NCBI RefSeq assembly: GCF_022026395.1
Contig: NZ_CP041767.1
Coordinates: forward strand, 808,001-872,000
Length of the DNA stretch: 64,000 nt
Direction of reading: 5' to 3'
From: Brevibacillus brevis
GTDB lineage: Bacteria > Bacillota > Bacilli > Brevibacillales > Brevibacillaceae
The translations under genes were made by a program, and so were the position numbers. Shown here piece by piece: positions 22,800 through 64,000 of this stretch. Under the pieces are notes generated by a model that saw only the letters and a list, made by a program, of their open reading frames with translations, had not been told where the DNA came from and made no database searches. How positions within the stretch are numbered: position 1 is the first letter of the stretch; each line of letters begins with the position of its first letter.

Positions 22800-23025
22800 C
22801 GGAGCTGTTGTGGGGAAGAAGCGTCTTTCCAGTCTACGCTTCGGCCTACGCCCCGCTGTGGGTTGGACTGTCCGCTCCGGGCTGAATGGCGGGAGCCGCT
22901 TCAAAAGTAGCAGTTTCGATGAGGTATTCGCAGAGTTGAAGCTAAAAGCACTCCCTCCATTCAGCCCTCCGCTTTGTCGGGCTCCAGAGGCGCTTGGACT
23001 GGAAATACGCTTCTTCTACGGAGCT
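22800..23025 (+). repeat. Long-hairpin intergenic element, copy A
   Basis: A 226-bp interrupted palindrome starting about 12 bp after the bceAB terminator. Paired blocks: GAAGAAGCGT 22815-22824 with 23007-23016; TTTCCAGTC 22826-22834 with 22997-23005; GGGCTGAATGG 22879-22889 with 22957-22967. It shares 22 identical bases with copy B at its 5' side (22826-22847) and 20 at its 3' side (22979-22998). An open frame over it (22657-23094) has no protein character and no ribosome site. Confidence 0.85.
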
Positions 23026-23110
23026 ATTGTTAAAAACGGAGAGCCGCTTCAAGAAGCGTTCTTCAAATCAAAACAGTTGGAAAGACAAAAATAATGAACA
23101 CATCCCGCTG

Positions 23111-36270: not shown

Positions 36271-36834
36271 CTATAGGCGCTTGATCAGGTTCATTGTTCC
36301 CGATGACCTGACAACAATCCATCCGTCAGGAATAGGCGAGCCTAGCATCACCCATACCTCCTGACCAGAGGATGCGTTGTTCAGATTTTTAAGCAGGTTC
36401 ATGGTTCCAGTACTTCTGATTACAACCCATCCGTCAGGCATAGGGGAGCCGAGCATTACCCAAACTTCCTGATTAGAAGAGGCGCTGTTCAGGTTTTTAA
36501 GCAGGTTCATGGTTCCGGTACTTCTAATCACGACCCATCCAGTTGGCATAGGGGAACCGAGCATTACCCAAACTTCGTAACCAGTCGGAGCGTTGTTCAT
36601 ATCTTTAATCAGGTTCATATTGCCGGAAGATCTGATGACGACCCATCCGGTTGGAATAGGCGAGCCGAGCATTACCCAGACTTCTTGACCAAATGCGGCA
36701 TTTTTGATTATTGTTTTTGAGGAGGCTGGTGCCTTCTCCTGTGAAGGTAGAGCGGCCCCGTGGGCTGTTACAGCTAAGCTTGGTACGGCGACAACTGAGC
36801 TTAATGTCAGGATGATCAAGGCTTTTTTAAACAT
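36271..36834 (-). CDS. Secreted protein of four 36-residue tandem repeats
   Basis: About 187 residues: a signal peptide (KKALIILTLSSVVAVPSLAVTAHG) and then four near-identical units beginning EVWVMLGSPxPxGWVV, about 36 residues (108 bp) each, the last without its linker. Each unit holds two Trp, a Gly-Ser-Pro turn and a VVIRSxGxMNL(I/L)K strand, suggesting small beta modules. I do not recognise the family. ATG 36834 is preferred because the first ATG (36840) is too near the AAAGG. No partner gene is evident; it is flanked by the secreted protease on one side. Confidence 0.8.
   Translation of the reverse strand: MFKKALIILTLSSVVAVPSLAVTAHGAALPSQEKAPASSKTIIKNAAFGQEVWVMLGSPIPTGWVVIRSSGNMNLIKDMNNAPTGYEVWVMLGSPMPTGWVVIRSTGTMNLLKNLNSASSNQEVWVMLGSPMPDGWVVIRSTGTMNLLKNLNNASSGQEVWVMLGSPIPDGWIVVRSSGTMNLIKRL
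36285..36700 (-). repeat. 108-bp tandem DNA repeats
   Basis: The DNA under the four protein repeats has a 108-bp period; for example equivalent GAG triplets fall at 36338 and 36446. The high identity between units makes copy-number change by recombination likely. Confidence 0.8.
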
Positions 36835-37025
36835 GAACATCAACCTTTCATGACAGAGGTAATGTAGCTCTGAAACGCTCATCGAGTGGATGCCAGAAGT
36901 TGCGGTACTCCATCAAAAATAGTAGATGGATATCATTGCTTCCCTCCAACAAAAGCTATATATACCATTTTATAGGATATATTTTCTTTTTACTTTAGGA
37001 GATATTGTCGAATGGTAGACAAATT

Positions 37026-52799: not shown

Positions 52800-52945
52800 T
52801 AGCTGTAGTGGGGGGAAGAACATTTCCAGTCTACGCTTCGGCCTCCGCCCCGCAAGGGATTCACTGTCCGCTCCGAAATTCCCCGCCATTCATTCCTACG
52901 CTAAGTAGGGCTCCAGAGGCGCTTGGAAAAGATCATCTCCCTCAA
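52800..52945 (+). repeat. Long-hairpin intergenic element, copy B (shortened)
   Basis: It starts three bases after the speD terminator T-tract with the conserved AGCTGTAGTGGGG end. It shares TTTCCAGTC plus following bases (52823-52844), ACTGTCCGCTCCG (52863-52875) and GGGCTCCAGAGGCGCTTGGA (52908-52927) with copy A. The inner arms are shorter and the right end is poorly preserved, so this looks like a decayed or deleted copy. Confidence 0.8.
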
Positions 52946-53050
52946 AAGACCCCCAGACATAACTGCCAAAAAGGTTTAATTCCCCGAAATAATCTTCAGC
53001 TGTTCGAAAGTCATGTGGCATTGCTTCTCCCGACCTCAACGGTTGGAGGT

Positions 53051-60690: not shown

Positions 60691-60939
60691 ATGTTCTGGT
60701 TCGTATGGGCTGTCGTCGGTGTGGTCGTTTGGTGGGCAATGAGCTTGATCTGTACAGGAAAAGCGGCAGGATCAGGCTGGTGGGCTTCGCTCATTGCTGC
60801 TCTTTTGGGTAGCTGGCTGGGCGATTTGGTACTGGGTGATTGGCTGTGGATGTGGGCAGGCTTCAACGTCATTGCCGGAGCCATTGGTGCGGTCGTCATC
60901 ACTTGGTTGTGGTGTTTGGTGGTGAAGCAATTAAAATAA
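60691..60939 (+). CDS. Small YeaQ/YmgE (GlsB)-like membrane protein
   Basis: 82 residues with three hydrophobic helices rich in Gly and Trp: FVWAVVGVVVWWAMSLICTG; SLIAALLGSWLGDLVLG; AGFNVIAGAIGAVVITWLW. This is the pattern of the so-called transglycosylase-associated/GlsB stress family, whose role is not settled. GAGAGGGAG precedes the ATG. Followed by a terminator and repeat C. Confidence 0.82.
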   Translation: MFWFVWAVVGVVVWWAMSLICTGKAAGSGWWASLIAALLGSWLGDLVLGDWLWMWAGFNVIAGAIGAVVITWLWCLVVKQLK

Positions 60940-60964
60940 GCGAAACAATTTCGTATTACTAACG

Positions 60965-61002
60965 AACCAGGGATCGTCCAAATGGGCGGTTCCTGGTTTT
61001 TT
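60965..61002 (+). terminator. Intrinsic terminator after the small membrane protein gene
   Basis: Stem AACCAGGGA (60965-60973) with TCCTGGTT (60991-60998), then T. Confidence 0.8.
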
Positions 61003-61004
61003 AT

Positions 61005-61228
61005 GCGGAGCTGTAGTGGAGAGAAGAATATTTCCAGTCTAGGCTCCAGGCTCCGTCCTGCTGAGGGTTAAGACTGCCCGCTCCGAATGGATTCGCGGGG
61101 AAACGCAAAAAGTGGTAGCCGCTTCGTAGCGCGAGCAAGTTGCGTTTCTTTTGCCCGCGAATCCCTTCTCCGCTCGGTAGGACTCCACAAGTCACTACGT
61201 CTGGAAATATTCTTCTCTGGCGTAACGA
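61005..61228 (+). repeat. Long-hairpin intergenic element, copy C
   Basis: It begins two bases after the preceding T-tract with GGAGCTGTAGTGG. Paired blocks, all perfect: 17 bp 61021-61037 with 61201-61217 (GAGAAGAATATTTCCAG and complement); 10 bp 61090-61099 with 61154-61163; 9 bp 61100-61108 with 61140-61148. Contains the family block GACTGCCCGCTCCGAATGG. Confidence 0.85.
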
Positions 61229-61278
61229 GAGTGTATTCTTCCATCTTTTAAAGCATTAAAAACTCGTTTAGAAAGGAT

Positions 61279-61506
61279 AGCTCGCAGAGGAAACAGGGGA
61301 AATAAGCGAAGATCTTAGGGACGCCGACCGAGACGCAATGCAAAAAGCGAAACACGCTCTTAAACGTCCACCTCTGAAATAACTTCGAGAAAGAGACCAC
61401 TTTGGACGCGGTTTCGCTTTTTGCATGGAGTCGTGCAGTCAATCCCGCAGGGGGTGGCCCTAGAATCAGAGCGTTTTCTTCTGTTTCCTCCCCACCACTG
61501 CAGCCG
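61279..61506 (-). repeat. Long-hairpin intergenic element, copy D (opposite orientation)
   Basis: Paired blocks: 10 bp GAGGAAACAG 61287-61296 with 61481-61490; 16 bp ATGCAAAAAGCGAAAC 61338-61353 with 61411-61426. Its right end, read on the minus strand, is GCTGCAGTGGTGGGGAGGAA, the same as the left end of copies A-C. It sits head-to-head with copy C, 50 bp away, and its right edge is 140 bp before tcyP. The 87-codon open frame inside it is spurious. Confidence 0.85.
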
Positions 61507-61559
61507 GACATTATGTACCTCTGTAAGACAGTTTGGAATAATATAAAAACAATTCTTAC

Positions 61560-61589
61560 TTGACCAGTAGGGATTGTTGGTAATATAAC
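61560..61589 (+). promoter_or_regulatory. Likely promoter of the cystine symporter gene
   Basis: TTGACC (61560-61565), 18-bp spacer, TATAAC (61584-61589), 57 bp before the start codon. Confidence 0.5.
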
Positions 61590-61646
61590 TATATCTATAC
61601 CGAATACAATAATGAGAGGTACATAAAACGAAAGGGAGGGGAATAT

Positions 61647-63032
61647 ATGTCGACGTTATTGATCATCGTAAACATTGTTTTATTGCTCTTATTCATTGCT
61701 GGATTGTATGCCATGCAAAAGAAGCATATTTCTTTTTCCAAGCGGGTATTTGTCGGTCTCGGACTCGGGATTTTATTTGGACTCATTTTGCAATACGTAT
61801 ACGGAGCCAAATCGGATGTACTCAAATCCACTATCGAATGGTACAACATTGTAGGTAAAGGCTATGTGAAACTGCTTCAAATGATCGTAATGCCACTAGT
61901 ATTCATCTCTATTTTATCGGCTTTTACCAAAATGAAACTAACCAATAACATTGGGAAAATCAGTACGCTGATTATCGGACTTTTGGTAGGGACGACTGCT
62001 GTCGCGGCAGCGATCGGGATTTCGACTACCTTGGCATTTAATCTCGACGGGGCACAATTCCAGCAAGGGGATGCGGAATCTGCTCGGATCGAACAGGTGG
62101 AGCAGCGCTTGGGTGATATCGAGAACTTGAGCATGCCGGCGAAAATCCTGGAACTGCTTCCAGCCAATCCTTTCCTCGACCTGACTGGAGACCGGGCGAC
62201 TTCTACAATTGCTGTTGTGATTTTCTCCGCGATTATCGGTGTAGCATATTTAGGGGTAAAGCGCAAAAATCCGGAGCAAGCTGAATTGTTTGCGAAAATC
62301 GTCGATGCATTCCATACGATCACTATGCGTATCGTGACATTGATCTTGCGCCTGACGCCATATGGTGTACTGGCAATCATGATCAGAGTCGCAGCTACCA
62401 GCGATTACAATGCCATCTGGCAGCTGGGCAAGTTCGTTGTCGCATCGTATGTGGCGCTGATCATCATGTTTATCGTTCATTTGCTGCTGTTGACGTTTGC
62501 AGGATTGAATCCAATCACCTACGTGAAAAAAGCATTCCCTGTCCTGACGTTCGCCTTCACTTCGCGTACGAGCGCGGGCGCGTTGCCACTGAATGTAAAA
62601 ACGCAGCAAAGCATGGGGGTTCCTGAGGGAATTGCCAACTTCGCAGGCTCCTTTGGACTCTCCATCGGACAAAACGGCTGCGCCGGTACGTATCCAGCCA
62701 TGTTGGCTGTCATGGTAGCACCTGTCGCAGGAATTGATCCGTTGACACCATCGTTCATCCTGACACTGATCGCAGTTGTGGCGCTCAGCTCCTTCGGGGT
62801 TGCAGGCGTAGGTGGCGGGGCGACCTTTGCAGCACTGCTCGTCTTGTCCACGATGAATTTGCCAATTGCCATTGTCGGTCTGCTCATCTCCGTTGAGCCG
62901 TTGATTGACATGGGCCGCACAGCACTAAACGTAAGCGGCAGCATGACGTCCGGTCTCTTGACGAGCAGAGTGACAAAAGAGCTGGATACCAATGCTTACC
63001 ACGGAACCGACCAAAAAACGCTGACTGTGTAA
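61647..63032 (+). CDS. tcyP: L-cystine symporter, TcyP-like (dicarboxylate/amino acid:cation symporter family)
   Basis: A 461-residue membrane protein of the DAACS fold: helices from the N-terminus, GYVKLLQMIVMPLVFISILSAF (about 72-93), FTSRTSAGALPLN (serine-rich hairpin-like region near 307-319), GLSIGQNGCAGTYPAML and the last conserved ISVEPLIDMGRTALNVSG. The Gln/Asn/Gly/Cys stretch and overall size fit TcyP rather than glutamate (GltP) relatives. AAAGGGAGGGG precedes the ATG. In B. subtilis tcyP is repressed by CymR; I could not verify a CymR box here. Confidence 0.85.
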   Translation: MSTLLIIVNIVLLLLFIAGLYAMQKKHISFSKRVFVGLGLGILFGLILQYVYGAKSDVLKSTIEWYNIVGKGYVKLLQMIVMPLVFISILSAFTKMKLTNNIGKISTLIIGLLVGTTAVAAAIGISTTLAFNLDGAQFQQGDAESARIEQVEQRLGDIENLSMPAKILELLPANPFLDLTGDRATSTIAVVIFSAIIGVAYLGVKRKNPEQAELFAKIVDAFHTITMRIVTLILRLTPYGVLAIMIRVAATSDYNAIWQLGKFVVASYVALIIMFIVHLLLLTFAGLNPITYVKKAFPVLTFAFTSRTSAGALPLNVKTQQSMGVPEGIANFAGSFGLSIGQNGCAGTYPAMLAVMVAPVAGIDPLTPSFILTLIAVVALSSFGVAGVGGGATFAALLVLSTMNLPIAIVGLLISVEPLIDMGRTALNVSGSMTSGLLTSRVTKELDTNAYHGTDQKTLTV

Positions 63033-63039
63033 TTGTAAT

Positions 63040-63088
63040 AAAACAGGCTGTACCGTCTCTTGCGACAGGTACAGCCTGTTTTGTTTTG
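63040..63088 (+). terminator. Intrinsic terminator after tcyP
   Basis: Perfect 15-bp stem AAAACAGGCTGTACC (63040-63054) with GGTACAGCCTGTTTT (63068-63082), then GTTTTG. The A-rich left flank could also serve the minus strand. Confidence 0.88.
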
Positions 63089-63126
63089 ATTTATGTGGTT
63101 TCAAGAAACTAACTCGTGTATACAAA

Positions 63127-63359
63127 GGCTACGGAGAGGAAGAGAAAAACGGAGCGACTGGAGGCCTTGGCGGGCCTACCCAGTCGGAACGGAAAAAAGT
63201 GGTACACGCTTTTCGACCAACCTCTTCGCTGAGAAGCTTCCGCCCATCGGGTGGCTTTTGGTCGACGTACCGCTTTTTGGAGTGGAGACGGACATCTCCG
63301 CTTCCTTGTTGGCGTGCCACGAACGGAGGAAGCCCGTTTTTCTCTTCCCCACCACTATG
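63127..63359 (-). repeat. Long-hairpin intergenic element, copy E (opposite orientation)
   Basis: Paired blocks: 15 bp GGAAGAGAAAAACGG 63138-63152 with 63334-63348; 7 bp CGACCAA 63214-63220 with 63258-63264; and an imperfect AAAAAGTGGTAC/GTACCGCTTTTT pair between them. Minus-strand reading starts CATAGTGGTGGGGAAGAG, the family's conserved end, about 30 bp after the stop of the OppA-like gene. Open frames across it are artefacts. Confidence 0.83.
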
Positions 63360-63388
63360 TTCGCACAAACCAAAGATGTTTTCATTCC

Positions 63389-64000
63389 CTACGGATTAAC
63401 CGAGGTGTACTTAAAGTAAGCGCCGCCCAGCGGGAAGATGATGAAATCCTTCACCTTGTCGTTTTTCACATAAGGGCTTCCACGGAAGTTGATTGGAGCC
63501 AGCGGCATTTCTTCCATAAGAATCGTCTCAGCTTCGAGCAGAATTTTTTTGCGCGCGTCCAGATCAGGCTCGTTGTAACTCTTATCGATCAGCTCTTTAA
63601 ACTTGGCATTTTCCCAATCCGGGTGGTTGTTTCCGCCCGTTTTATCACGGAACATCTCCAGGAAGTTGATCGGGTCATTGAAGTCTGCGCCCCATTGGAA
63701 GCGGATCATGTCAAAGTTCGCTTGCGATCTCATGTCCCGGTACACCTTCAGCTCCGCCGTGTACAGCTTCACGTTGACACCGAGTGCCTTTTTCCACTGA
63801 TCTTGCAGGGCTTCTGCCAGTTTTTTGTTGGTATCATTTGTGTCAAAGGTGTAGGTAACAGTCGGGAAGGTCGAGAGTCCGAGCTCCTTCATACCTTCTT
63901 CCAGTAATGCTTTTGCTTTCGCCTGATCTTCTTTAAAGTAGCCGTCTGGCTTTAATCCCATGGAAGTCGGTACCCAACCATAGGCGGCTGGAACACCCGT
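63389..64000 (-). CDS. Oligopeptide-binding ABC lipoprotein, C-terminal part (5' end outside window)
   Basis: The frame is open from the right edge (reading TGVPAAYGWVPTSMGLKPDGYF) to the stop at 63389, at least 203 residues. The content is the C-terminal lobe of a family-5 (OppA/DppA) binding protein: EDQAKAKALLEEGMKEL, MIRFQWGADFNDPINFLEMF, EAETILMEEMPLAPINFRGSPYVKND. Internal ATG 63961 is not the start. Distinct in sequence from the family-5 protein at 41.8 kb. Likely peptide uptake; its permease genes would be outside. Confidence 0.88.
   Translation of the reverse strand, partial: TGVPAAYGWVPTSMGLKPDGYFKEDQAKAKALLEEGMKELGLSTFPTVTYTFDTNDTNKKLAEALQDQWKKALGVNVKLYTAELKVYRDMRSQANFDMIRFQWGADFNDPINFLEMFRDKTGGNNHPDWENAKFKELIDKSYNEPDLDARKKILLEAETILMEEMPLAPINFRGSPYVKNDKVKDFIIFPLGGAYFKYTSVNP

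Follow-up and report, generated by a model that had tools for sequence, protein, structure and literature searches.

Large facing hairpins in Brevibacillus and related genera, a multi-copy family whose long stems change sequence and keep Watson–Crick pairing

Interspersed palindromic repeats and the Brevibacillus unit

The BIME/REP, REPIN and ERIC elements are multi-copy, intergenic, palindromic repeats that are assembled as mosaics of modules and often lie at gene ends. The unit described here is also multi-copy, intergenic, palindromic, a mosaic of modules and situated at gene ends, but it differs from all of these in its ∼225-nt hairpins within ∼495-bp units, in the free Watson–Crick renewal of its long stems and in a strong leading-strand bias, and from BIME/REP in that its genome is without a Y1 transposase. 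Prokaryotic MITEs resemble it in being non-coding, in their inverted-repeat ends, in presence or absence between species and in having copies inside other elements; in contrast to MITEs, the loci read showed no autonomous parent that shares its ends, and each half of the unit is a large hairpin that covaries in its own right. Integron attC sites and the hairpin ends of IS200/IS605 combine a free stem, a conserved structure with few unpaired bases, a folded single-stranded DNA substrate and a replication-strand bias. The likeness of the unit to these sites is an analogy by description (variable stem, conserved unpaired bases, strand bias), and it differs in that no integrase or Y1 gene is linked to the units. 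The BOX, RUP and SPRITE repeats of Streptococcus pneumoniae follow gene orientation, with 60.8–63.3 per cent on the leading strand, and share with the unit an interspersed, highly base-paired character, enrichment at gene ends and slow recent movement (PMC3049150, in the part available); the present units differ in lying on the leading strand in 47/49 copies, behind terminators, and in covarying across genera.

Brevibacillus-specific and broader literature searches, mostly outside subscription papers, returned no description of the hairpin family, and Brevibacillus is not named in the available part of the main texts of PMC11109978, PMC8632094 and PMC2267715. What is known is the interspersed palindromic repeat; new are the size of the units, their arrangement in facing pairs, the strictness of the strand, the free Watson–Crick renewal and the spread over genera.

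The window (the whole 64-kb stretch of DNA analyzed, positions 808001–872000 of a one-contig 6.16-Mb genome, G000) contains the following features.

60964..61002, plus strand: intrinsic terminator of the upstream gene, seen in the sequence as a stem and T run, directly 5' of the unit
61006..61228, plus strand: hairpin C, the left half (H1) of the C–D unit (covariance model 111.5 bits in L078; arms; fold)
61229..61277, plus strand: spacer of ∼50 nt between hairpins C and D, seen in the sequence
61278..61505, minus strand: hairpin D, the right half (H2), of C-like architecture (L078 1773–2000 minus, 47.9 bits; arms; fold)
61287–61296 with 61481–61490 (outer) and 61338–61353 with 61411–61426 (inner), minus strand: arms of hairpin D
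61010..61019, plus strand: left end of the unit, GCTGTAGTGG, an inverted repeat of the right end (from sequence)
61495..61504, plus strand: right end of the unit, CCACTGCAGC, with one mismatch relative to the left end (from sequence)
22803..23026, plus strand: copy A, a solitary family-1 hairpin (G000 830803–831026, 215.8 bits)
52801..52951, plus strand: copy B, a family-1 hairpin with an interior deletion (G000 860801–860951, 75.1 bits; sequence)
63131..63362, minus strand: copy E, a family-2 hairpin whose GTGG end lies on the minus strand; it follows the terminator of gene 61647–63032

Hairpins C and D make up one ∼495-bp unit in which two ∼225-nt hairpins face each other, and the terminal inverted repeats by which a MITE is recognized are present at its ends (GCTGTAGTGG and CCACTGCAGC). 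In 29 distinct C–D units (33 were collected and four identical duplicates dropped) the consensus fold comprises both hairpins together with a GCTG/CAGC stem that closes the unit. An earlier note on this DNA had placed a comparison of four copies (A, C, D and E) at 61005–61506; that interval contains just C and D, the two halves of a single unit, and the four copies belong to different subfamilies, with the GTGG end of D and E on the minus strand, such that they are not states of one stem. The note's observation that every stem is matched exactly by its own far arm was borne out for all four. In copy A the arm GAAGAAGCGT at 22815 is the exact partner of 23007, and in C GAGAAGAATATTTCCAG at 61021 has its exact partner at 61201, within a full arm of 18 bp (61020–61037 with 61201–61218); the arms are likewise exact in D (GAGGAAACAG, 61287 with 61481) and in E (GGAAGAGAAAAACGG, 63138 with 63334). 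The claim of a different stem in every copy is correct for A, C, D and E, where the differences lie between subfamilies, and incorrect in general: a near-invariant C-type outer stem across the 29 C–D units rules out a private stem for every copy.

Perfect inverted repeats of at least 15 bp with a spacing of 140–260 nt occur twice in the window and in none of 20 Markov resamples, and the same search at 10 bp gives nine in the window versus 3–12 in the resamples. Since the 10-bp count falls within the resample range, the arms of A and D by themselves are not above chance; the arms of E (15 bases) and C (18 bases) exceed it. Folding z-scores of whole hairpins, computed for C, D and E, are −4.98, −5.77 and −4.71, respectively, with equally good shuffles in 0/200.

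Copies along the chromosome and across genera

Positions were counted for G000 copies of at least 97 bits, with weaker matches excluded. Reading along the leading strand was seen in 47/49 of them (dnaA at base 25) and in 21/21 E-type matches, and 38/49 have the same orientation as the upstream ORF. The strand bias of the copies exceeds that of the ORFs, 38/55 of which lie on the plus strand (a gene bias taken from the window only), and the leading-strand excess has a p of 6e-6 for an assumed gene bias of 70 per cent, 0.0015 for 80 per cent and 0.12 for 90 per cent. Within 110 nt upstream, 43/49 copies have a hairpin and T run that resemble a terminator, compared with 221/980 resamples and 188/980 random stretches (19–23 per cent) and 16/49 on the opposite strand. 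The 23 family-1 copies of G000 are confined to 0.52–1.66 and 4.71–5.75 Mb. The terminus half of that chromosome (1.75–4.6 Mb) is without a complete family-1 hairpin and does contain C–D and E-type copies.

The covariance model rests on 19 family-1 copies and gave 98 matches in G000 at E ≤1, many of which are both strands of one element. At the loci fetched, hairpins of the C and D types are oppositely oriented with ∼50 nt between them, and ∼90 nt 3' of the family-1 hairpins stands an E-type hairpin, a D-type hairpin, a third short type or nothing; dozens of such large hairpin repeats are present per Brevibacillus genome and in some relatives. The third type is a compact ∼80-nt hairpin (GCACTGTCACATGT ... 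ACATGTGGCAGGGCTTC; L054, L055, L059, L063, L065 and L128, all G000), and some family-1 hairpins carry an alternative loop (AACGCG..CGTTTTTGTATGTAAT; L070, L072 and L073, G000), as if swapped like a cassette. In one genome, G022, facing hairpins stand ∼140–680 nt apart (L360, L370, L384, L388), instead of 50–90. Eight fetched tandem arrays contain three to five units each with linkers of ∼25–35 nt, and G000 has two arrays of two units apiece. Units are identical inside several arrays, and at a given locus they differ from species to species. A 38-letter piece of the window recurs exactly in records of Brevibacillus formosus, fortis and porteri.

A blastn search finds the unit in 26/26 genomes of the genus and 0/13 genomes of other genera, and the covariance model (E ≤1e-5) matches 33/39 genomes and 6/7 genera; the pair-rich model also rewards any long hairpin, and the sequences were therefore inspected directly. 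Four genomes from three other genera (G026, G034, G036, G038) have the unpaired core in common with the Brevibacillus units, and G026 has facing hairpin pairs as well, ∼30 nt apart. The core (CCYGCAAGG..ACTGTCCGCT and GCAAAA..GGTTGCG) is recognizable in four genera while the stems share little sequence, the combination of variable stem and conserved unpaired bases that characterizes attC sites.

Judged by their flanks, family-1 copies keep their positions in several species: 126 complete copies (23 own and 103 of the 113 rows from relatives) fall into 32 ortholog groups of at least two and three singletons. The C–D unit occupies its locus in nine genomes (the first hairpin is collapsed in G006, and the unit is split across contigs in G012), and at three loci without it (L240, L241, L242) the flanking genes are 117–218 nt apart versus ∼640. 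Copy E is not present at the orthologous loci L236 and L237. A check for target-site duplications found filled and empty sites with strongly diverged flanks. The hairpin is collapsed in L239, L127 and L128, which agrees with what is expected of a DNA hairpin.

Covariation and the kind of pairing in the long stems

The central observation of the earlier note, that pairing is kept while sequence changes, stands far beyond controls, and the covariation it had proposed to look for is strong by counts of double changes against shuffled alignments. Among 19 copies from one genome 16 pairs have both sides altered (mean of the shuffles 6.8, 0/500), and among 113 rows from relatives 54 (25.3 shuffled). 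In 56 rows from ten genomes and four genera the score is 0.619, compared with 0.192 for shuffled and at most 0.112 for slid arms, and double-changed cells number 918 versus 286.8 after shuffling; the 113-row and 56-row alignments are model-fitted and hence lean to the model, a bias that the slid and shuffled controls guard against. In P2 both-side changes occur at 14/14 pairs of the cross-genus set. RNAalifold on 126 copies missed P2, and the counts use the earlier pair set and so rest on that structure. Covariation is found inside subfamilies and between orthologous copies, and is strongest across genera.

Such covariation is commonly read as proof of a structured RNA, and here a large covarying set has long stems without the wobble that RNA tolerates. 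The explanation that we prefer, at an even chance, is a once-mobile family of DNA hairpins, present in many copies, whose long stems stay Watson–Crick as folded single-stranded DNA. The typical unit, of two ∼225-nt facing hairpins with a short spacer and inverted-repeat ends (singles also occur), would fold as single-stranded DNA, exposed most probably on the template of the lagging strand at the replication fork, and a putative protein would recognize hairpin and core, with insertion beside terminator hairpins as the result. Arm-to-arm copying in replication may help to keep the arms alike.

Of the alternatives, the one that survives best is a structured RNA, which we regard as possible rather than probable: transcribed by read-through or from a promoter of their own, the units would be large noncoding RNAs or mRNA tails, and the covariation would reflect selection on RNA folding. 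Strong covariation across genera and folding z-scores of about −5 are consistent with this, as are the unpaired core conserved across genera with its GNRA-like GCAA loops and the match in orientation with the upstream ORF. But the units sit behind terminators, and Rfam has no match, with 0 hits for the whole window at the gathering cut-off and chance-level matches only for 60900–63500 and five loci at E ≤1. ARAGORN gave no result.

The kinds of mismatch in the stems also bear on this choice. An RNA stem tolerates G-U, whereas for DNA pairing G-T gains nothing over A-C, and on this premise the count of G-U versus A-C is a simple discriminator of DNA-level from RNA-level constraint. P1–P3, which were singled out after the cross-genus covariation table was seen, comprise 35/70 pairs and are nearly pure Watson–Crick, with G-U in 16/1919 cells (0.8 per cent) and A-C in 33 (one row, the reverse-strand match of L055, is omitted from the G-U counts). 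RNase P RNA from 26 genomes of the genus, aligned with MAFFT and RNAalifold whereas the element alignment is model-fitted, has G-U in 297/2963 (10 per cent) and A-C in 3, and at its variable pairs G-U reaches 20 per cent, versus 0.8 per cent in the freely varying P1–P3. The other 35 pairs of the element are poorly paired (non-pairs 23.1 per cent), and their 16.3 per cent of G-U, in the central helices, is again as a structured RNA would have it; over all 70 pairs G-U is 8.4 per cent, near RNase P.

Counted as distinct minority states, in family-1 P1 and P2 and C–D H1 and H2 with one G-U-prone pair omitted in P1 and one in H1, the elements have 34 G-U and 35 A-C, against 24 and 3 for RNase P (Fisher p 0.0004). 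As a matched RNA control, the terminators that share their loci with the elements show 33 G-U, 16 A-C and three double changes; in that comparison P1 has 11, 11 and 1, and P2 6, 20 and 24. A-C thus at least equals G-U in P1 and P2, which argues against RNA. G-U is favored in family-1 P0 and P3 and in H2 of the C–D unit (11 G-U, 3 A-C), and helix 4, with 97 G-U cells and zero A-C, looks RNA-like or merely conserved. That the A-C excess is G-U of one transcript read from the opposite strand was rejected because the same strand gives an A-C excess in H1 and a G-U excess in H2. The long stems avoid G-U steps, and selection there, if any, is therefore most likely on DNA pairing; given the G-U in the central helices, the post hoc choice of stems and the leaning of P0, P3 and D toward G-U, we hold the DNA reading no higher than at an even chance.

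A narrower form of the DNA reading is offered tentatively, and we consider it rather improbable as it stands. It describes widespread mobile sites of two facing DNA hairpins, at which a putative recombinase reads the fold and not the stem sequence, and moves the folded strand of the lagging-strand template next to terminator hairpins. Selection on such sites would act on pairing and a short unpaired core only, and the stems would drift as Watson–Crick DNA. If the single-stranded DNA reading is true, Brevibacillus and its relatives have a new structure-recognizing recombination system.

Likeness of the arms and movement of the units

The earlier note had named structure selection or arm-to-arm copying as the cause of matching arms, of which neither is proved; the double changes in P2 speak for copying, and close tandem neighbors speak against copying as a fast process. 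In the 32 ortholog groups P2 has 28 double Watson–Crick changes, among them A-T to T-A and A-T to C-G, which no G-U step can bridge, and 46 one-sided changes (21 A-C, 6 G-U, 19 other). These counts, together with the 6/16 double-change copies that have two or more doubles, favor an explanation by mutation alone, in which replication template switching (quasi-palindrome correction) copies arm onto arm in a hairpin without function. Template switching between arms is possible, and as a source of compensatory change it has been described for RNA genes (PMC8794818, in the part available). As the whole explanation it is doubtful. The comparison of paired and unpaired sites that the note had called for gave, in ortholog groups, 0.115–0.17 differences per site for unpaired positions, 0.07 for P2 (about half the unpaired rate) and 0.007–0.03 for P1 (far lower), which implies a constraint besides any arm copying; conservation of the unpaired core extends across genera; and near-identical tandem neighbors show one-sided changes only. 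Tandem neighbors with at most ten differences number 5/23, none with a double change, and eight of the other 18 have one. If template switching is true, it is recorded directly in orthologous copies whose changes are dated.

Ectopic gene conversion, in which whole hairpins are replaced and paired states travel jointly and so appear compensatory, is unlikely to be the full account. Copies with double changes are 16/111 (groups of at least three), and in 4/16 the whole loop is replaced, with differences at 11–20 loop sites; the double states of the D-type are linked sets of two subtypes, and arrays are homogenized within species. But 12/16 of the double-change copies have at most eight loop differences, and exchange leaves the origin of the paired states and the full renewal of stems across genera unexplained. 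The similarity of the arms fits compensation that is slow, or copying that is rare, together with exchange between copies.

The weakest of the alternatives, a REP/REPIN-type element mobilized by a Y1 (HUH) REP transposase, draws on the GTAG-like ends and two inverted hairpins that REPINs have and is highly improbable, given 0 matches to Y1_Tnp (PF01797) in G000 and hairpins ∼six times the length of a REP.

An autonomous element with the ends of the unit was not found among the loci read around matches, where the only candidates were copies of IS1182 that contain one hairpin in their interior. G016, G017 and G038 have one hairpin upstream of the gene for an IS1182-type transposase; the transposase, a partial protein, scores 238 bits with NF033551, below the cut-off of 270, and above the cut-off with Pfam DUF772 and DDE_Tnp_1. 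The hairpin is present at 11/13 related IS1182 loci, and L393 and L394 have a single terminator in its place. The IS copies have their own ends (GAGAGCCCTGCA...), unlike those of the unit. Because of these differing ends and the two relatives without a hairpin, IS1182 was rejected as the parent element, and the hairpin seems to be a passenger that entered the IS behind an internal terminator and then moved along with it. In G017, IS1182-family copies also lie in the loops of intrinsic terminators (L392, L400, L403), with direct repeats of ∼6–8 nt at their ends.

Two further repeats were seen in passing. In the window, 36281–36699 holds three overlapping direct-repeat copies at 108-nt spacing within the minus-strand ORF 36271–36882, which probably encodes a repeat protein. 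At L245 (G020), a shorter repeat of ∼130 nt stands behind terminators on both flanks of a gene; its two copies share a conserved inner part, and their outer stems are wholly different from each other and each self-paired; this may be a second family with the same behavior.
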